Source of the DNA: Cytophagales bacterium
Lineage (GTDB): Bacteria > Bacteroidota > Bacteroidia > Cytophagales > VRUD01
Direction of reading: 5' to 3'
Assembly: GCA_019456305.1 (NCBI GenBank)
Contig: VRUD01000022.1
Coordinates: 1-51,578 of the forward strand
Length of the DNA: 51,578 bases
Position numbers and translations under genes: made by a program. Position 1 is the stretch's first letter, and each line of letters starts with the position of its first letter. Positions 42,017 to 51,578 of the stretch are shown in pieces. The notes under the pieces are model-generated. The model did no database searches. It saw only the letters and a program-made list of their open reading frames with translations, and was not told the DNA's origin.

Positions 42017-44047
42017 ATGAAATTACATATAACAATATTATTGCTATACTCATTGAGTTTTTTGAACGCCCAGGACGAAAAACTAATAAAACGTCTGGAA
42101 AAAGATGCAAAGGAATACTTCCGTATTGAAGAATATCATAATGCACTGCCCCTCTACTTAAAGCTCGATAGCATATCCCCGGATAATCCTGAATACAATT
42201 ACAGAATAGGGGTTTGCTACCTGCACTCAAATAATGAACCGTTTTCGTTGACTTATTTACAACGGGCAGAAAAGATGAATTATAAAGATGAGAAGCTAAA
42301 TTATCGTCTGGGCAAAGCGCTGCATTTTAATCATCAGTTTGACGCAGCAATAGAAGCGTTTCATAAATACCTGAGAACCTTGAAATCTGATGACACTGGC
42401 GACAGGAAATTGATGGAAGAAGTAAACCGCTACATTGGCCAGTGCCATATAGGAAGAAAATTATTAACGAAACCATTGGATATTCGCATTGAAAATCTAG
42501 GCCCTGTAATTAACAGCCGTTTCCCCGATTATGCACCGGTAATATCGGCTGATGAAACAGTACTTATTTTCACATCAAGGAGAGATAATACCACTGGCGG
42601 CTATATTGACGAAGAAGGTAAATATTTTGAAGATATTTACATTTCCTATAAAGAAAAAATTTATATAGACAATGAAAAACAATATAAATACTCAGATCTA
42701 CTCAAAAAATTTGGTATAAAAAAGACTGATACATTGATAAACCAGGGTACCTTTAAGGTAACGGAGCAATGGACAAAACCACAAAACATGAAGATCAATA
42801 CCGAAACGCATGATGCCTGCGTTGCAATTTCTCCTGACGGGCAAAAGCTTTTTACCTACAAAACCAACAGAAGCGCTATCAGGTCTGGCGATATTTATGT
42901 AAGCGAATTGACCGGCAATGAATGGTCAATCCCCCAAAGACTACCCGATGAGATCAACACCAAAGGATGGGAACCAAGCTGCAGTATTTCTGCTGATGAA
43001 AAAAAACTCTTCTTTTCTTCCGATAGAGAAGGCGGATTTGGTGGAACCGATATCTATATGTCTGTAAAACTACCAAATGGTAAGTGGTCAGTAGCCAAAA
43101 ATATAGGCCCGAAAATCAATACACCCTATGACGAAGATGCTCCTTTCATTCATCCGGACGGAAAAACACTCTATTTTAGCTCAAAAGGCCATGAAAGCAT
43201 CGGGGGATTTGATATTTTTACAAGCGTTTATGTTGAGGAAATGGATGACTGGTTTGCAGCAAAAAACATTGGCTATCCTATCAATACTTCCGGGGATGAC
43301 ATTTTTTTTGTGTGGTCAGCCGATGGAAAAAGAGGGTATTTTTCATCAGTCAGAGATGACAGTTATGGAGATAAGGATATCTATGTTGTTTACAGACCTG
43401 AATCAGAAATTTCACTTGTGGTATTAAAAGGGCATGTATTAAATTCCAAAACGAATGAACCAATAGGTGCTACTATTGTATTTATGAATAATACCGATAC
43501 TAAATTAATTGGATATTATAATTCAAACAGCTTTACCGGTAAATACACCATCATATTACCACCCGGCAAAAATTACGGAATCACTGTAGAAGCGCCTGGT
43601 TATTTATTTCATTCGGAAAATTTTGACCTCCCTGATCTTCAAGATTATAAAGAAATAGAAAAGGATATTTTATTAGACCCTATTGAAATCGGGAAAAAAA
43701 GCATACTCAGGAATGTATTTTTCGATTATGCAAAAGCGCACTTAAGAGATGAATCCAAACCGGAATTAGAAAGATTATATGTGCTTCTAAAAAGAAATTC
43801 TACCTTGAAAATAAAGATCTCCGGCCATACTGATAACCATGGATCCCATGAATACAATATACAGCTTTCCCAGTCAAGAGCTCAATCGGTAGTTGACTGG
43901 CTCATTAACAGAGGCACGGAAAAAGAAAGATTAACTGCGGTAGGACAGGGTGAAACACAACCAATGACTCCAAACGAGAACGCTGACGGAAGCGATAATC
44001 CCGAAGGCAGGCAACTGAATCGCAGAACGGAGTTTGAGATAATCTAA
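42017..44047 (+). CDS. PorE-like TPR-PD40-CRD-OmpA protein 2
   Basis: 676 residues from ATG 42017 (MKLHITILLLYSLSFLNAQ is the signal peptide). A TTG at 41990 would add nine residues encoded by a repeat, so it is rejected. Same architecture as protein 1 and the closest paralogue in the array: TPRs, PD40 propeller (ISADETVLIFTSRRDNTTGG, CVAISPDGQKLF, CSISADEKKLFFSSDREGGFGG, PFIHPDGKTLYFSSKGHESIGG), regulatory-like domain, OmpA domain (FFDYAKAHLRDES, ISGHTDNHGSHEYNIQLSQSRAQSVV). An extra about 33-residue segment (EKIYIDNEKQYKYSDLL ... FKVTEQ) interrupts the propeller relative to protein 1. Likely anchored to peptidoglycan under the outer membrane. Confidence 0.85.
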   Translation: MKLHITILLLYSLSFLNAQDEKLIKRLEKDAKEYFRIEEYHNALPLYLKLDSISPDNPEYNYRIGVCYLHSNNEPFSLTYLQRAEKMNYKDEKLNYRLGKALHFNHQFDAAIEAFHKYLRTLKSDDTGDRKLMEEVNRYIGQCHIGRKLLTKPLDIRIENLGPVINSRFPDYAPVISADETVLIFTSRRDNTTGGYIDEEGKYFEDIYISYKEKIYIDNEKQYKYSDLLKKFGIKKTDTLINQGTFKVTEQWTKPQNMKINTETHDACVAISPDGQKLFTYKTNRSAIRSGDIYVSELTGNEWSIPQRLPDEINTKGWEPSCSISADEKKLFFSSDREGGFGGTDIYMSVKLPNGKWSVAKNIGPKINTPYDEDAPFIHPDGKTLYFSSKGHESIGGFDIFTSVYVEEMDDWFAAKNIGYPINTSGDDIFFVWSADGKRGYFSSVRDDSYGDKDIYVVYRPESEISLVVLKGHVLNSKTNEPIGATIVFMNNTDTKLIGYYNSNSFTGKYTIILPPGKNYGITVEAPGYLFHSENFDLPDLQDYKEIEKDILLDPIEIGKKSILRNVFFDYAKAHLRDESKPELERLYVLLKRNSTLKIKISGHTDNHGSHEYNIQLSQSRAQSVVDWLINRGTEKERLTAVGQGETQPMTPNENADGSDNPEGRQLNRRTEFEII

Positions 44048-44048
44048 A

Positions 44049-44228
44049 GCGCATGGCCCCGCCAGTTGGCGGGGCTATGCAAAATAAATTTAGAATATAA
44101 TTTGGATTAAACATTTTCGTTAACTAATTTTGAACTCATTAACTAAAAAACTAATAACTAAACTAATACTATGAAAAACATCAAGTCTCTATATACACTA
44201 TGCCCCGCCAACTGGCGGGGCCATGCGC
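44049..44228. repeat. Perfect 27-bp inverted repeat across a gene start
   Basis: 44049-44075 and 44202-44228 are exact reverse complements (each with the internal palindrome GCCCCGCCA.../TGGCGGGGC). The first begins just after the stop of gene 2; the second lies inside the first codons of gene 3 (coding CPANWRGHAL). The 126-nt between them holds the spacer and the ATG at 44171. Confidence 0.8.
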
Positions 44229-46249
44229 TATGCACCATGCGTTTATTTACAACAGGGCTGGCTTTAATAGTTTTTACAAATGCTTATGCCCAGAATATAA
44301 AAAAAATCATGCAAAAGGCAGATTATTTTTTCGAAGAAAGTGATTATAAGGCTGCTATACCGTTATATCTTGAGGCATTGGAATTAGACCCTCAAGGGGT
44401 AAACAAATATTACAAAAAAACTTTTGCCGGTGTAGCTACTACGCAATACAGGTTAGGACTTTGTTATTTACAAACCACCTTCAAAACAAAATCTATCCCG
44501 CATCTTAAAAAAGCGTTTAAAATGAATCCTTTAGTGCATGCCGAGGTACAATACCATTTAGGGTTGGCCTATCAATTAAACCATAGATTTGATGAAGCAA
44601 TCGCTTCTTTCAGATCATTCAAAGGAACTTTGAGTGAAAAAGAGCAGATAAAAATTCAGGAATTAAACCGGAAAATACTAGAATGTAAAAATGGGATTGA
44701 GATGGTCAAAAATCCTGTAAAAGCAAAATTAGATAATTTAGGGCCAGTTGTCAACTCTAAATATAATGATTTTGCACCTGTTATTTCAGCAGATGAATCA
44801 ATATTAATGTTTACTTCAAGGAGACCGGGTTCAATAGGGGGCGATCAAGATGAATTTGGAGAACATTATGAAGACATTTACACTTCATACAATATTGATG
44901 GCAACTGGACAGAACCCCGTAATATGGGAAAACCCATCAATACTAATGACCATGATGCCACGATAGCGCTTTCTCCTGATGGTAAACGGCTATTTATTTA
45001 TAATAGTGATAATGGAGGCGATATCTTTTATTCAGAACTTAAGGGAGATATATGGTCGAAACCCCAAGGCTTTGGTAAGAATATTAATAGCAAAAATACA
45101 GAACCATCAGTATCTATGACTTCTGATCATAAGACAATTTATTTTTCATCTAATAAACCTGGCGGTTATGGGGGATTAGATATTTATATGAGTAAGCTAG
45201 ATGCAAAAGGTAAATGGGGGCAAGCAATTAACCTTGGCCCGGTTATCAATACTAAATACGATGACGATGCACCTTTCATACAAGTAAATGGCAGAGATTT
45301 GTATTTTAGCTCAAGGGGACTTAAAGGAATGGGAGATTATGATATTTACAGGTCTACCTTGAAAGGAGGCGTATGGTCAGAACCGGAAAACCTGGGTTAT
45401 CCTATTAATACTGCAGGCGCTGACATATATTTCGTTCTTTCTGCTGATAATAAACATGGTTATTATGCTTCTGATAAAGAAGACGGGATAGGTGCAAAAG
45501 ATATCTATATGATATCAATGCCTGAAAGAAAAAAAATTGCAGCGGTTACTACCAAACGAAAAACGATCAAAACAAACCCCAAAAAGAAAATTATAGCGCC
45601 CGTAAAGAAAGTCAAAACAGTCACTGCGATTACTATACTTAAAGGCACAATCAGGGATGATTTTACCAAGAAACCTTTGGATGCAAAGGTCGTGGTAATT
45701 GATAATGCAAAGAATCAAACGATCTTTCAAGAAACAGCAGATCCACTTACCGGTAAATACCAGGTTGATCTGCCTTCAGGGAAAAACTACGGCATTCGTG
45801 CTGAAAAAAAAGACTATATGTTCCATTCAGAAAATGTTAACATTCCTGCAAGCGAAGGTTTCCAGGAAATCACCAAAGATATATATCTGAAGAAAATCGC
45901 TATAGGCACCAAAGTAGTGCTTAAAAATATATTCTTCGATCTCGGTAAAGCTAACCTGAGACCTGAATCAGGAGCAGAGCTGGTAAAATTGGCAACGCTT
46001 CTTCAGGAAAACCCTACGATAAAAATAGAAATTTCAGGACATACAGATAACGCAAGCTCCTGGGCATATAATAAAAAACTTTCAGAGAACCGGGCAAAGT
46101 CGGTAGTTGATTATTTAAGGTTTGAAGGCATTGAAGAATGGAGGTTGAGATATGCGGGTTACTCTTTCGACAAGCCCATCGCTTCTAATGATACTAAAGC
46201 AGGCAGACAGTTGAATCGCAGGGTGGAATTTGAGATTATTGGAAACTAA
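44171..46249 (+). CDS. PorE-like TPR-PD40-CRD-OmpA protein 3
   Basis: 692 residues from ATG 44171; a second ATG at 44237 begins an ordinary signal peptide (MRLFTTGLALIVFTNAYAQN). Which one is used is unclear: codons 11-23 come from an inserted repeat (CPANWRGHALCTM), and removing it would join MKNIKS to LFTTGLALIV. TPRs follow, then PD40 (ISADESILMFTSRRPGS, TIALSPDGKRLF, VSMTSDHKTIYFSSNKPGGYGG, YFVLSADNKHGYYASD), a Lys-rich linker (about 456-490), regulatory-like domain and OmpA (FFDLGKANLRPES, ISGHTDNASSWAYNKKLSENRAKSVV). Function as for proteins 1 and 2. Confidence 0.83.
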   Translation: MKNIKSLYTLCPANWRGHALCTMRLFTTGLALIVFTNAYAQNIKKIMQKADYFFEESDYKAAIPLYLEALELDPQGVNKYYKKTFAGVATTQYRLGLCYLQTTFKTKSIPHLKKAFKMNPLVHAEVQYHLGLAYQLNHRFDEAIASFRSFKGTLSEKEQIKIQELNRKILECKNGIEMVKNPVKAKLDNLGPVVNSKYNDFAPVISADESILMFTSRRPGSIGGDQDEFGEHYEDIYTSYNIDGNWTEPRNMGKPINTNDHDATIALSPDGKRLFIYNSDNGGDIFYSELKGDIWSKPQGFGKNINSKNTEPSVSMTSDHKTIYFSSNKPGGYGGLDIYMSKLDAKGKWGQAINLGPVINTKYDDDAPFIQVNGRDLYFSSRGLKGMGDYDIYRSTLKGGVWSEPENLGYPINTAGADIYFVLSADNKHGYYASDKEDGIGAKDIYMISMPERKKIAAVTTKRKTIKTNPKKKIIAPVKKVKTVTAITILKGTIRDDFTKKPLDAKVVVIDNAKNQTIFQETADPLTGKYQVDLPSGKNYGIRAEKKDYMFHSENVNIPASEGFQEITKDIYLKKIAIGTKVVLKNIFFDLGKANLRPESGAELVKLATLLQENPTIKIEISGHTDNASSWAYNKKLSENRAKSVVDYLRFEGIEEWRLRYAGYSFDKPIASNDTKAGRQLNRRVEFEIIGN

Positions 46250-46262
46250 TCACAAACCATTT

Positions 46263-46318
46263 AACCATATAGCCATATAACCATTTGTTGATTAATAACG
46301 AAAGAATCTATTTATTAC
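46263..46318. repeat. Partial inverted copy of the 36232-36510 element
   Basis: This stretch is close to the reverse complement of 36269-36322 (GAAAGAATCTATTTATTAC end), and the bases just before it (46249-46280) match 36391-36425 directly. It fills most of the 81-bp spacer between PorE-like genes 3 and 4. Confidence 0.65.
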
Positions 46319-46330
46319 TAAATTTACGCC

Positions 46331-48010
46331 ATGAGACATGGGTATGTGTTTATCATATTATGTTCTATATCATTTTCTTCTGCACTTAAAGCCCAGGTTG
46401 AAGGTGATTTGGTTGCTCTTGCAGATGAGATGTATTCATTTGGAGATAAAAGAGGCGCCCAGGGAGTATATCTGGAAGCGCTTACTACTAACCCGGACAA
46501 TGCGAGAGCCAACCTGATGGTAGGCGTAAGTTATCTTGAAACCATCTACAAAAATAAAGCTGCCCCCTATTTAGAAAAAGCCTATCAACTTAACCCTGGT
46601 ATTCAGGCGGATATACTCTTACTGCTCGGAAGTGCGTTCCAATATCAATATAAATTTGACAAGGCTATAGAATTTTACAATAATTATAAGTCTAAATTCA
46701 CTGACGATGATACGGATTATGACCATGGTGATGATATCATCAGGCTGATAGATCGAAAGGTCTATGAATGCAATAACGGGAAAGAATTTATAGCTAATCC
46801 CGTTGATATAGCAATTCATAATCTCGGACATATGAACAGCCCGGAACCAGATTATGCTCCCCTCATCTCTGCCGGAGACGATATACTGATCTTTACATCA
46901 AGAAGAGAGGGCAGCACAGGTGAAAATAAGGATATAGACAATATGTTTTTCGAAGATATATACATTTGCCATAAAAAAGGCCATCGTTGGTCTAACCCTG
47001 AAAATATCGGGCCGCCAATAAATACCAAATTCCACGATGCCAGCGTAGGATTATCAGCTGACGGTAAACGACTTTATATTTACCAGGATAATGAGTTTGG
47101 AAGCGGGGGTATTTTTTATTGTAATCAGAACAGCAGTGGCAAATGGTCCAAACCCAAACCTGTCATGGCAATTAATTCTGAATATATTGAAAATTCTGCA
47201 ACTCTATCGGCAGATTTCAAAAGCTTATACTTTTCAAGCAACAGGCCAGGTGGATATGGTGGATTGGATTTATACGTGTGTAAAAGAAATGAAAAACATA
47301 AGTGGGGAAAGCCCATAAATCTTGGACCAACAATAAATACGGAATACGATGAAGACAACCCTGTTCCTGATATTGATAACAAAACCTTATATTTCAGCTC
47401 CACAGGCCATAAGGGAATGGGAGATTATGATATATACAAAACTATTTTTATAAACGAGGATGAAGGATGGACAGAGCCTGAAAATATGGGTTATCCCGTT
47501 AATTCTCCTGATGCTGATATACACTTTGTGCTTTCCGGTGATGGAAGGTTTGCTTATTATTCTTCAATTAAAGATTATGGTGTTGGGGAGCAAGACCTGT
47601 TTATTATGAAAATGCCTGAAAGAGCATACCAGGATGAAGTGTTGATTAATTTAGCTAATATTACGGGAAAAACAGTAGTTGAACTCAAAGAAGATCAAAA
47701 AATTCATAATCAATCATTTGTTTATACAGCAAAGGTTGACGAAAAAGTCAGAGTAAAACAGGATCTTTTAGCACGGATGGATACATATGATGAAGATACT
47801 CAAGGATTACCGCAAATATTAGCTGATGCTTTAGCAGGTGTATCATTTGATCAGAGTCCTTTGTTCAAAGATACAGATTCGGACAATAATCACTGTATTA
47901 CTACCTTTGAGATATATTCTATGATTGACATTTTTTTTGAGGGAAAAACAAATTATTCGGTCAAACAAATATATAGACTGATTGATTTTTACTTTGAACA
48001 AGACTGTTGA
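46331..48010 (+). CDS. PorE-like TPR-PD40 protein 4 with dockerin/EF-hand-like C-terminus
   Basis: 559 residues. Signal peptide 1-22 (ends ALKAQ), TPRs about 25-150, PD40 propeller about 165-440 (LISAGDDILIFTSRREGSTGE, VGLSADGKRLYIYQD, ATLSADFKSLYFSSNRPGGYGG, YFSSTGHKGMGDYDIYKT). It has neither the regulatory-like nor the OmpA domain of proteins 1-3. Instead residues about 505-559 carry DSDNNHCITTFE (516-527), a DxDxN..I...E calcium-loop pattern, followed by a helix EIYSMIDIFFE and a second copy-like helix KQIYRLIDFYFEQ. The end resembles a degenerate dockerin with one intact loop. With no visible anchor, it may be free in the periplasm or held by another protein. Confidence 0.78.
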   Translation: MRHGYVFIILCSISFSSALKAQVEGDLVALADEMYSFGDKRGAQGVYLEALTTNPDNARANLMVGVSYLETIYKNKAAPYLEKAYQLNPGIQADILLLLGSAFQYQYKFDKAIEFYNNYKSKFTDDDTDYDHGDDIIRLIDRKVYECNNGKEFIANPVDIAIHNLGHMNSPEPDYAPLISAGDDILIFTSRREGSTGENKDIDNMFFEDIYICHKKGHRWSNPENIGPPINTKFHDASVGLSADGKRLYIYQDNEFGSGGIFYCNQNSSGKWSKPKPVMAINSEYIENSATLSADFKSLYFSSNRPGGYGGLDLYVCKRNEKHKWGKPINLGPTINTEYDEDNPVPDIDNKTLYFSSTGHKGMGDYDIYKTIFINEDEGWTEPENMGYPVNSPDADIHFVLSGDGRFAYYSSIKDYGVGEQDLFIMKMPERAYQDEVLINLANITGKTVVELKEDQKIHNQSFVYTAKVDEKVRVKQDLLARMDTYDEDTQGLPQILADALAGVSFDQSPLFKDTDSDNNHCITTFEIYSMIDIFFEGKTNYSVKQIYRLIDFYFEQDC

Positions 48011-48315
48011 AAAATAAAGTAAAAAGTAAAAAGTAAAAAGTAAAAATATGGAGGCAGTTTTTTTTATTTATGAATAAATTGAGTATTTTTTTTCTTGGGA
48101 CTTGGAACTTGGAATTTGGAACTTGGGATTTGGAATTTGGGACTTCGAGTTTCGGATTTCGAATTTCGGATTTTGGATTTGGAATTTGGGACTTGGGACT
48201 TCGTGATTTTTACTTTTTACTTTTTACTTGGAATTTGGGACTTGGGACTTAAATTTAATTATATAGATTATTTATACAATTAGACAGTAGTATTTCGTAC
48301 TTCTTACAACTAAAT
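48011..48315. repeat. Phased heptamer array between PorE-like genes 4 and 5
   Basis: 48016-48066 is an inverted 5' part of the dispersed repeat (GTAAAAA heptamers, then TATGGAGGCAGTTT). 48094-48247 is an unbroken series of 22 heptamers (CTTGGGA, TTTGGAA, TTTCGGA, CTTTTTA and variants) in one phase. Its tail (AATTATATAGATTATTTAT, 48256-48275) is the 3' end of the dispersed repeat. Two overlapping ORFs here are products of low complexity, not genes. Confidence 0.75.
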
Positions 48316-49974
48316 ATGTATAGATTATTAACAATATCGCTTATTCTGTGTTTAATAGTGATCTCTAATAATAGTCTTATGGCTCAGGATGAGACAGAAT
48401 TGATAGAGCTGGCGCATGAGATGTATAATTTTGGTGATAAGCAGGGTGCTATGGAAATATATTTACAGGCATTAGAAATAAATCCGGATAAACCCATTGC
48501 TAACCTGATGGCAGGCATCTGTTATCTTGCAACAGCAGATAAAGCAAAAGCTATACCTTTGCTTGAAAAGATATATCCGGTTGAGCAACAGGTTATTGAA
48601 GAGCTCTTTTATTTTGTCGAATTCCCGGACGATGTATATGATCTGTGGGAAGAAACAGATTATATATTATATTTAATTGGTGAGGCATATCAATTTGACT
48701 ATCAATTTGATACAGCTATAGTATATTATCAACGGTACAAACAAGATATTGTGGATAAGGAGGTAAAGCGCAAAAAAGGTTATAAAGAAAATACGCTGGA
48801 ACTTCTGTTTAATAAAATTGACAGAAGAATCTATGAGTGTAATAATGGAAAAGAGTTCGTAGAATTTCCTATTGGTGTGATCATTCAAAATGTTGGTAAA
48901 GATGTTAATTCGTCTTATTCCGAATACGTCCCTTTGGTTTCAGCAGACCAGAGTAAATTAATTTTTACATCAAGACGAGAAGGGTCTACAGGCGGAAGAA
49001 TGTATATAGATAATCAATATTACGAAGATATTTATATTTCTCATAAAGATGGCCACCGCTGGACTCCCGCTCACAATATTGGTTCTAATATCAATACCGA
49101 TCTACATGATGCCTGTATAGGTTTATCACCGGACGGCTCGCAATTGTTTGTGTATAACACCTCTAATGGAGGAGATATTTATACGTCAGCGCTGGAAGAC
49201 AATAACTGGACAGTTCCTAAAAGCTTTTATAAGCCAATAAACTCTAAGTTTTTAGAAGCATCTGCTTCTATTACTGCTGACGGCAATACGTTATATTTTA
49301 CAAGCACCAGGCCGGATTATAAAGACCTGGATATTTATATGTCTGTCAAAGATCAATACGGGATTTGGAGTGAACCTGTTAATCTTGGAACTAAAATAAA
49401 TACCGAATATGATGATGACGCACCATTTATATTATCCGATAATGTTACCCTCACCTTTAGTTCAAAAGGCCATAAAGGTATGGGAGGATATGATATATTC
49501 CGCACAACTTTAAATGAAGACAGCTCCTGGTCAGAACCTGTAAATATGGGATTTCCTATCAACACTACCGGTGATGATGTGTATATGGTATTTTCAGGCG
49601 ATGGCAGTACAGGTTATTTTTCTTCTGTAAGAGAAAGCGGGTTTGGAGACCAGGATATTTATAAAGTAACATTACCCAGGATGATGTCTGTATCAGAATC
49701 CGGAGAAGAAGGAGGACTTTTGGATTATATTTCAACGTATGATGTGAAAAAAAAGAAATCTCTGGATAGCAAAGTATTAAAAGAGGTATTAGCTGGTGCT
49801 CCGCAAACTAAAACTTCTAACTTACCGGCAGAATTCAGGGAAGCAGACCTGGATCGTGATAATTATATTTCTACAGAAGAAATTTTTAATATAATTGACG
49901 CTTTTTTTGAAGATGAAACAGATTTTACCGTTGACCGGATCTATGCGTTGATAGACTATTTTTTTGAGCAATGA
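48316..49974 (+). CDS. PorE-like TPR-PD40 protein 5 with dockerin/EF-hand-like C-terminus
   Basis: 552 residues. Signal peptide 1-24 (ends NSLMAQ), TPRs about 27-170 with an insertion relative to protein 4, PD40 propeller about 185-455 (LVSADQSKLIFTSRREGSTGG, IGLSPDGSQLFVYNTSNGGD, ASITADGNTLYFTSTRPDYKD, TFSSKGHKGMGGYDIFRT, MVFSGDGSTGYFSS). Like protein 4 it has no OmpA domain. The end holds DLDRDNYISTEE (511-522), a canonical 12-residue EF-hand loop, then EIFNIIDAFFE and DRIYALIDYFFEQ, again a loop-helix plus helix. Closest relative in the array is protein 4. Confidence 0.78.
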   Translation: MYRLLTISLILCLIVISNNSLMAQDETELIELAHEMYNFGDKQGAMEIYLQALEINPDKPIANLMAGICYLATADKAKAIPLLEKIYPVEQQVIEELFYFVEFPDDVYDLWEETDYILYLIGEAYQFDYQFDTAIVYYQRYKQDIVDKEVKRKKGYKENTLELLFNKIDRRIYECNNGKEFVEFPIGVIIQNVGKDVNSSYSEYVPLVSADQSKLIFTSRREGSTGGRMYIDNQYYEDIYISHKDGHRWTPAHNIGSNINTDLHDACIGLSPDGSQLFVYNTSNGGDIYTSALEDNNWTVPKSFYKPINSKFLEASASITADGNTLYFTSTRPDYKDLDIYMSVKDQYGIWSEPVNLGTKINTEYDDDAPFILSDNVTLTFSSKGHKGMGGYDIFRTTLNEDSSWSEPVNMGFPINTTGDDVYMVFSGDGSTGYFSSVRESGFGDQDIYKVTLPRMMSVSESGEEGGLLDYISTYDVKKKKSLDSKVLKEVLAGAPQTKTSNLPAEFREADLDRDNYISTEEIFNIIDAFFEDETDFTVDRIYALIDYFFEQ

Positions 49975-50345
49975 TCTTTAGTTATTAGTTAGTTGGTTTA
50001 CCCGCCTGCCATAGGCCTTTGGCGGGCAGGTAGTTATAGTTTAATTTTTAAGTTTTGAAGTGGCAAATGAAATAGCAAATCGCTACACTATATTAATGAA
50101 AGGGATCAATGGTTATACAAGATTTCTTAAAGGGCATCTCTAAAAACTACATATTTTTTAAAACACACCCCTTGCCCCTCTTGATAGAGGGGAATGTATG
50201 GTGTAGTTTTTAGAGATGCCCTAAATTAAATGACTTAACAAACCATAAACCCAAGAAACCAAAACAAGTAACTAAAAAACCATAACCCCGCACATAAATT
50301 TATATGCGGGGTAACTAACCAACTAACCAACTTAAAACTAATTAT
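49975..50345. repeat. Intergenic region with three inverted repeats
   Basis: No gene. CCCGCCTGCC ... GGCGGGCAGG (about 50000-50031) is an imperfect palindrome. 50131-50151 and 50202-50222 are perfect 21-bp inverted arms (core GGCATCTCTAAAAACTAC) with an inner CCCCTCT/AGAGGGG pair, a 92-bp MITE-like unit. CCCCGCA (50286-50292) and TGCGGGG (50305-50311) form a hairpin 34 nt before the next start, possibly a terminator of the upstream unit or an attenuator. Confidence 0.6.
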
Positions 50346-51473
50346 ATGCTAAAAAACATCATTATACTCTTAAACATCGTTATTCTAATAACCCGTCACG
50401 CATATAGTGATAATCGCTATGCGCTATGCACTATGCGCTATGCGCCAGATGACGTAAAAGCAACGACCTACCTGCCTGCCTCTGCAAGTCCGGGCAGTGA
50501 ATTCAATGTACAGGTAATCATCAACAAAGGCGCCACATCGGGTTTTGGAAAGCTTCAGCAAGAGTTACCTCAAGGTTTTACAGCAACAGCCATGGAAATA
50601 AAAGGAGGAAACTTTTCATTCAAAGACCAGACACTGAAAATAATCTGGATGTCATTACCTCCTGAGCCTGAATTTACAGCATCCTATAAGGTTTCAGTTG
50701 CCCCTGATGTATCGGGTGAACAGACGATAGGCGGTAAATTTCAATACCTTAAAGATAATCAACGGACAACTTTTAATATTAATCCTGTCAGCATTTCTAT
50801 TAAGGTGGTAACAACTGTAGTCTCAGCAGAACAAACTGCCTCTGCAAGCACCAATAAAGTATCTAGCGAGCCCGCAACTAAAAAATTTGTTAAAAAAAGT
50901 GTAGGAGCATTACCAATGACCGGGTCAAAAATAATTTTGAAAAATGTATATTTTGATTTTGGTAAATATATAATAAAATCCGGGTCTAACCCGGCTTTGA
51001 ACAAGCTAATTGACTTTATGGGCAAAAATTCCACACTAAAAATTGAAATTGCCGGCCATACTGACAATGTAGGTTCGAGAACAGTTAATTTAAGATTATC
51101 TCAAAAAAGAGCTGAAGCAGTGGTGAATTATTTAGTTGGTAGAGGAATTGCCAAAAACAGGCTTTTCCCGAAAGGTTACGGCCCTGATTCTCCTATGGCA
51201 TCCAATGATGATGATGATGATGGCCGGGAGCTCAACAGGCGTGTTGAATTTCAAAGACTCAGCGATGATTACACCCAAAGCGCCTATGCCAATCAAAGCT
51301 ATAGTGGGGGCCAAAAAAGCAATGAAGGAATTACTTACCATATCGTCAAACCGCTGAATACTCTATACTCCCTTTCTAAAATGTATGGCCTATCAACACG
51401 TGAATTAAAACGGCTCAATGGATTGACCTCCAATAAAATACGGATCGGGCAGAAGTTGAGGATTTCGAAATGA
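50346..51473 (+). CDS. OmpA-LysM envelope protein with cohesin-like N-terminal domain
   Basis: 375 residues. Signal peptide about 1-21 (ends RHAYS). Residues 22-34 come from an inserted heptamer repeat. Residues about 37-153 form a beta-sandwich: ASPGSEFNVQVIINKG, FSFKDQTLKIIWMS, EFTASYKVSVAPDVSGEQTIGGKFQY; the strand order and the LKIIW and YKV elements recall cohesin or related Ig-like domains, but I cannot confirm this. After a Ser/Lys linker, OmpA spans 196-305 (FDFGKYIIKSGSNPALNKL, IAGHTDNVGSRTVNLRLSQKRAEAVV, with peptidoglycan-binding Asp240 and Arg255), then LysM 331-374 (YHIVKPLNTLYSLSKMYGLSTRELKRLNGL). Two peptidoglycan-binding domains in one protein suggest a strong wall anchor. It is last in the PorE-like cluster. 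Confidence 0.75.
   Translation: MLKNIIILLNIVILITRHAYSDNRYALCTMRYAPDDVKATTYLPASASPGSEFNVQVIINKGATSGFGKLQQELPQGFTATAMEIKGGNFSFKDQTLKIIWMSLPPEPEFTASYKVSVAPDVSGEQTIGGKFQYLKDNQRTTFNINPVSISIKVVTTVVSAEQTASASTNKVSSEPATKKFVKKSVGALPMTGSKIILKNVYFDFGKYIIKSGSNPALNKLIDFMGKNSTLKIEIAGHTDNVGSRTVNLRLSQKRAEAVVNYLVGRGIAKNRLFPKGYGPDSPMASNDDDDDGRELNRRVEFQRLSDDYTQSAYANQSYSGGQKSNEGITYHIVKPLNTLYSLSKMYGLSTRELKRLNGLTSNKIRIGQKLRISK
50417..50444 (+). repeat. CTATGCG heptamers inside the OmpA-LysM gene
   Basis: Four phased units (CTATGCG, CTATGCA, CTATGCG, CTATGCG) code for RYALCTMRYA. The 19-mer ATGCGCTATGCACTATGCG recurs with one mismatch at 44223-44241 in PorE-like gene 3, read in the same frame (ALCTMR in both proteins). 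Confidence 0.75.
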
Positions 51474-51493: not shown

Positions 51494-51578
51494 CGTTAGC
51501 TGTTAGCTGTTAGCTGTTAGCTGTTAGCTGTTAGCTGTTAGCTGTTAGCTGTTAGCTGTTAGCTGTTAGCTGTTAGCT
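51494..51578. repeat. GTTAGCT heptamer array reaching the window end
   Basis: Twelve consecutive identical GTTAGCT units plus one base begin 21 bp after the stop at 51473 and continue past the window, so the full length is unknown. Confidence 0.9.

Follow-up and report, generated by a model that had tools for sequence, protein, structure and literature searches.

Introduction

To our knowledge, the known tethers between the bacterial outer membrane and the cell wall are built either as one chain, as in OmpA and Lpp, or as a fixed pair, as in TolB-Pal, where the TolB propeller binds Pal. In the type IX secretion system (T9SS), PorE is a lipoprotein of TPR-propeller-CRD-OmpA architecture, for which a bridging role between PorP, a barrel of the outer membrane, and peptidoglycan has been proposed (PMC9143113), and a crystal structure of the PorE C-terminal domain with a peptidoglycan fragment is cited in the same article (PMC7192894, cited in PMC9143113). 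Here we analyse a 51,578-nucleotide stretch of DNA from a Cytophagales bacterium (contig VRUD01000022.1, assembly GCA_019456305.1; the whole stretch is hereafter the window), in which two proteins related to the front half of PorE end in a small EF-hand tail, and the next gene joins a beta-sandwich to two peptidoglycan-binding domains. Tail and sandwich recur on adjoining genes in other Bacteroidota, and we propose that they may together tether the outer membrane to the wall in trans.

Results

Six genes on the forward strand make up the relevant part of the window (39705-51473), with the content given in the initial annotation. Three paralogous TPR-PD40 proteins (paralogue 1, 39705-41741; paralogue 2, 41990-44047; paralogue 3, 44171-46249) carry an OmpA domain in cis at the C-terminus. 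Protein 4 (46331-48010, 559 residues) and protein 5 (48316-49974, 552 residues) each have a signal peptide, TPR and a PD40 propeller and, in agreement with the earlier reading, lack the OmpA domain in a Pfam scan. They end in the EF-hand tail, which comprises the last 56 residues of protein 4 (47840-48007) and the last 54 residues of protein 5 (49810-49971). The canonical calcium loop reported for protein 5 (D511-E522, 49846-49881) is indeed present, and protein 4 has one as well (D516-E527, 47876-47911). The following anchor gene (50346-51473, 375 residues) encodes an N-terminal hydrophobic signal region, the beta-sandwich (residues 35-155, 50448-50810), an OmpA peptidoglycan-binding domain (residues 202-292, 50949-51221) and a LysM domain (residues 332-373, 51339-51464). 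The last two score 70 bits (PF00691, curated cut-off 27) and 44 bits (PF01476, cut-off 21), so that both wall-binding assignments stand, while the N-terminal domain matches no named family in Pfam or NCBIfam; its cohesin-type nine-stranded fold is modelled on a relative.

The NCBIfam profiles divide between the genes in the same manner. Protein 4 covers the front of the PorE profile NF052230 (positions 24-422 of 648) and of the CHU_0125 profile (10-447 of 639), protein 5 is likewise restricted to the front of both, and the anchor covers the OmpA end (508-600 and 526-635, respectively). The PorE scores of 164 bits for protein 4 and 145 bits for protein 5 come from the front part only and lie below the 600-bit cut-off. 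These profiles place proteins 4 and 5 among PorE-like TPR/propeller proteins.

Heptamer tandem repeats (AAAGTAA, CTTGGAA, CGCTATG and GTTAGCT) occur in the window at 48016-48198, 50415-50445 and 51495-51578. The CGCTATG array is internal to the anchor gene, between signal peptide and sandwich, and is translated as RYALCTMRYA. At the beginning of the third paralogue (44171-44240), Met23 is the probable start of translation, since MRLFTTGLALIVFTNAYAQ makes a good signal peptide; the residues upstream of it (HALCT) resemble the CGCTATG-type repeat of the anchor gene. Scans of the window for promoters and terminators yielded nothing informative.

The window's genome holds the tail profile in exactly four places and the sandwich in five. 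On contig C15 there is a second pair, in which a PorG-like outer-membrane barrel (65 bits against NF052316, cut-off 130 bits) ends in the tail and is followed directly by a gene that joins the sandwich to SPOR domains; these domains, too, bind peptidoglycan. The tails of the two pairs are 69% identical and the sandwiches 71%, and thus the two modules seem to have reached other host proteins by a joint duplication. Contig C96 encodes another TPR-PD40-tail protein. The remaining sandwiches include a sandwich-OmpA-OmpA-SPOR protein on contig C50 (L011:5964-8342), with no adjoining tail gene, and two neighbouring genes on contig C67 (L010:6499-8900), one of which has PKD-like repeats together with a T9SS type B sorting domain that scores below cut-off, so that secreted proteins may carry the sandwich as well. 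A PorP/SprF gene lies near the C67 genes. GldK is found above its cut-off, which shows that parts of a T9SS exist in this genome. Next to the C50 sandwich gene, a very long and regular repeat protein of at least 1812 residues (L011:1-5436) is built of units with motifs like GGVAPYTYKWSNGATTQDI.

We then turned to other genomes, using nothing but the sandwich alignment to scan some 85,000 species genomes and searching for tails with a hidden Markov model built solely from the four tails of the window's genome. The scan gave 31 loci in metagenome-assembled genomes of Bacteroidota, and in 25 of them the adjoining gene carries the tail at its extreme C-terminus (E 1e-9 to 1e-20). The genes of these 25 pairs share a strand and are separated by 9-209 nucleotides, the tail gene being first in 15 and second in 10. 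Flanking genes vary among the locus groups (uvrA, miaA/smpB and lpd/hemH, named by eye from sequence), so conservation of the pair goes further than that of its surroundings. Sampling hides two further cases: the unpaired locus L040 has an adjoining pair elsewhere in its genome (L129), and at L047 the contig edge falls inside the barrel gene of a genome that does contain a tail.

In searches of whole genomes, 27 of the 30 other sandwich genomes proved to contain the tail. Among 394 other Bacteroidota genomes there was no full-length tail, only three weak partial matches below 28 bits (one in a small protein that has two EF-hand loops of the ordinary kind, one in a peptidase-like protein and one in an unrelated protein). 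With four places in one genome and no full-length copy in 394 others, the tail is not a chance match. Co-occurrence of tail and sandwich by genome gives a Fisher p of about 1e-39, a value that takes related genomes as independent and is uncorrected for phylogeny. Genomes sampled across the order and across the phylum yielded no full tail outside the window's genome, and those from the order no sandwich either; the family of the window's organism is represented in the searches by the window's genome alone. To judge from these searches, the tail/sandwich family is rare.

The commonest tail host is an outer-membrane barrel followed by thrombospondin type 3 (TSP3) repeats and then the tail. The PorG profile NF052316 matches all 26 barrel-tail proteins, one of them with 54 bits, which is below the 130-bit cut-off. 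As a rule the partner protein combines two sandwiches with a SPOR-like domain at the C-terminus, recognised by Pfam in 9 of 31 and by alignment in the others. The 15 tail-first loci all continue with a gene for a paralogous barrel that carries SPOR-like domains in cis, and in the three such proteins scanned Pfam recognises SPOR. The split form of the tether therefore adjoins the unsplit one, as the tail paralogues adjoin the OmpA-in-cis paralogues in the window. Tails occur on barrel-TSP3, TPR-PD40, PD40-OmpA, CarboxypepD_reg and OmpA proteins, the last three in other genomes, and are C-terminal in all, which makes the tail a portable module. Two other genomes have four tails each, and such multiple hosts fit several cargo proteins per anchor. 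In the sandwich-SPOR proteins of L026-L056, a conserved N-terminus (e.g. MLKFVALLFNTVALLIYQFFF) leads directly into the sandwich with no clear cleavage site and may serve as a signal anchor in the inner membrane, in the manner of FtsN or DedD.

The tail combines a well-conserved calcium loop with an internal duplication. Over 38 tails the 12-residue EF-hand loop has D at position 1 in 38, D or N at positions 3 and 5 in 37 each, I at position 8 in 38 and E at position 12 in 37. As modelled for protein 5, the tail has two helices after the calcium loop, and these form a tandem duplication (ISTEEIFNIIDAFFED / FTVDRIYALIDYFFEQ) 19 residues apart; comparison of tail residues 20-35 with 39-54 gave a permutation p below 0.001 in 20 of 30 tails and of 0.003-0.03 in the others. 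The loop before the first repeat is canonical, and that before the second is shorter and without calcium-ligand residues. The initial annotation had described these tails as dockerin-like. The tandem loop-helix duplication bears this out in part; the second calcium loop of a dockerin does not, since one loop alone keeps its ligands, and neither does the dockerin type I profile PF00404, which matched none of 27 tails at E up to 1, where weak matches were to EF-hand profiles. A PDB sequence search with the tail gave generic EF-hands only, and comparison of the tail model with PDB structures gave a few weak EF-hand matches (Z about 2-3) with no dockerin among them.

The sandwich of a relative is confidently predicted by AlphaFold2 as a nine-stranded beta-sandwich. 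This model superposes on the cohesins 2vo8, 2jh2 and 2w1n with Z 12.6-12.8 over about 118 residues (root-mean-square deviation 2.9), and on the CLIPPER domain, pilins and integrin domains with Z 13-14. The Pfam cohesin family PF00963 matched 1 of 33 sandwiches, at E 0.011, which falls short of family membership, and other Ig-like families were matched as weakly and equally often or more. A PDB sequence search with the sandwich found no relative, and in a strand-by-strand comparison of conservation no single binding face stood out. The predicted fold is hence compatible with cohesins and with other Ig-like folds and not diagnostic, and the earlier description as cohesin-like holds to that extent.

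Discussion

Collectively, the 25 loci with adjacent pairs, the second pair in the window's genome, the co-occurrence across genomes and the paralogues with a wall-binding domain in cis strongly support that tail and sandwich belong together, and we regard it as very probable that they form a functional pair. That the pair substitutes for a lost wall-binding domain in cis is strongly supported by the same evidence. We propose that tail and sandwich act as plug and socket linking two envelope proteins in trans. The plug would be the tail at the C-terminus of an outer-membrane barrel or of an outer-membrane-associated propeller protein, at the site that in homologues is taken by a wall-binding domain of their own; the socket would be the sandwich, fused to OmpA and LysM in the window and to SPOR elsewhere. 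With the tail docked on the sandwich, the outer membrane would again be tied to peptidoglycan, and several tail-bearing proteins could share one or a few wall anchors. Contact would be direct, presumably calcium-dependent, and partners might be exchanged. We consider this direct tether the best explanation, with a probability of about 0.62, because it alone explains both why the tail replaces wall-binding domains in cis and why the sandwich carries domains of the same sort.

Two computations bear on direct contact. When distances between tails were compared with those between sandwiches after removal of the barrel signal (partial Mantel test), the partial r was 0.46 for the first sandwich and 0.44 for the second, as compared with 0.10 for the SPOR domain. 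In 13 loci tail and sandwich genes lie in the same frame with in-frame stops between them, and a read-through chain of tail, signal-peptide linker and sandwich was modelled with AlphaFold2 from 44 aligned sequences.

Several points limit the case for a direct tether. In the linked model both parts folded well, with the signal-peptide linker as a helix; their relative placement was not confident, and the predicted template modelling score (pTM) of 0.59 is about that expected for an unrelated placement, so that the model speaks neither for nor against docking. The Mantel comparison covers 18 loci only and is indicative, and linkage in an operon does not by itself prove contact. One tail host (L123) retains OmpA in cis, so the tail is not always a replacement for OmpA. 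Furthermore, three of the 30 sandwich genomes have no tail, and in two of these (L038 and L041) the sandwich-SPOR gene adjoins a barrel with SPOR in cis, which leaves room for a different partner or role of the sandwich. Of the cohesin-dockerin-type contact that the initial annotation put forward, the pairing and the stand-in for a wall-binding domain in cis are thus upheld, and confident docking is not.

The alternative that survives best is that tail and sandwich are both components of one envelope assembly (a T9SS accessory complex of PorG/PorE type) and are inherited together in an operon while each binds other components. The match of every barrel-tail protein to PorG, albeit below cut-off where scores are given, fits this, as do the PorE-like tail hosts of the window, the GldK gene, the PorP-family gene near the C67 sandwiches and the lack of confident docking in the linked model. 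It leaves unexplained why the tail sits where a wall-binding domain stands in cis and the sandwich carries that kind of domain, and why the pair recurs within one genome on unrelated hosts (propeller and barrel on one side, OmpA-LysM and SPOR on the other). We therefore consider this alternative unlikely.

Much less probable is a role of the tail as calcium sensor or sorting signal, with its closeness to sandwich genes due to shared locus ancestry. A canonical EF-hand loop in nearly all tails and their strictly C-terminal position would suit such a role. However, the pair persists through flipped gene order and changed flanking genes, no sampled genome without the sandwich has the tail, and the tail is helical in the model, unlike the T9SS sorting domains, which are beta-sandwiches. 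Least probable of all is a TolB-Pal-like contact, in which the propellers of proteins 4 and 5 would bind the Pal-like OmpA domain of the next gene directly and the tail would do something else: the window has both partners, yet the 25 outside loci and the C15 pair combine tail and sandwich with no propeller host and with SPOR, not OmpA, on the anchor.

If a direct tail-sandwich tether is correct, the connection between outer membrane and wall can be modular and shared, PorE-like and PorG-like proteins that lack OmpA are explained, and a new protein-docking pair has been found. In at least 28 Bacteroidota genomes, genes so far uncharacterised would gain a directly testable role. More tentatively, the pair could be a general plug and socket of the Bacteroidota envelope, in which an interchangeable tail on many outer-membrane and periplasmic proteins is held by one or a few sandwich anchors bearing OmpA, LysM or SPOR, with a tether that is exchangeable and perhaps calcium-gated. 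It would then be a cell-envelope counterpart of the cohesin-dockerin logic of cellulosomes, of separate origin or diverged beyond recognition in sequence.

The tether is best read as working like cohesin and dockerin, and we claim membership of neither family for sandwich or tail. As in cellulosomes and in the glycoside hydrolase cohesins of C. perfringens (2vo8, 2jh2 and 2w1n), a nine-stranded sandwich sits on the scaffold or anchor, the hosts are modular, and one partner ends in a small tandem loop-helix calcium module. Here, however, the tail hosts are outer-membrane and periplasmic proteins, the anchor has peptidoglycan-binding domains, and binding is proposed; the tail has one calcium loop where dockerins have two, and neither tail nor sandwich matches the respective Pfam family above cut-off.

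OmpA and OprF likewise couple an outer-membrane barrel to a peptidoglycan-binding domain, and a TSP3-type linker can follow the barrel; in the present system the barrel-TSP3 protein has the tail as its last part, and SPOR is supplied by a separate protein. TolB-Pal also places a PD40 propeller and an OmpA-type wall binder on separate proteins, whereas here the pairing tracks tail and sandwich, not propeller and OmpA. We searched the literature in an open library and found no description there of such a tail-sandwich pair. A new arrangement for PorE proteins had been suggested, and a PorE-like front half split from OmpA is what we find; the arrangement is not specific to PorE, most tails being on PorG-like barrels. 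Proteins 4 and 5 share with PorE the TPR-PD40 front half and differ from it in lacking the CRD and in falling below the NCBIfam cut-off, and their wall-binding end lies on another gene, to be reached through tail and sandwich. The present arrangement would thus perform with two chains the bridging from barrel to peptidoglycan that is proposed for PorE.

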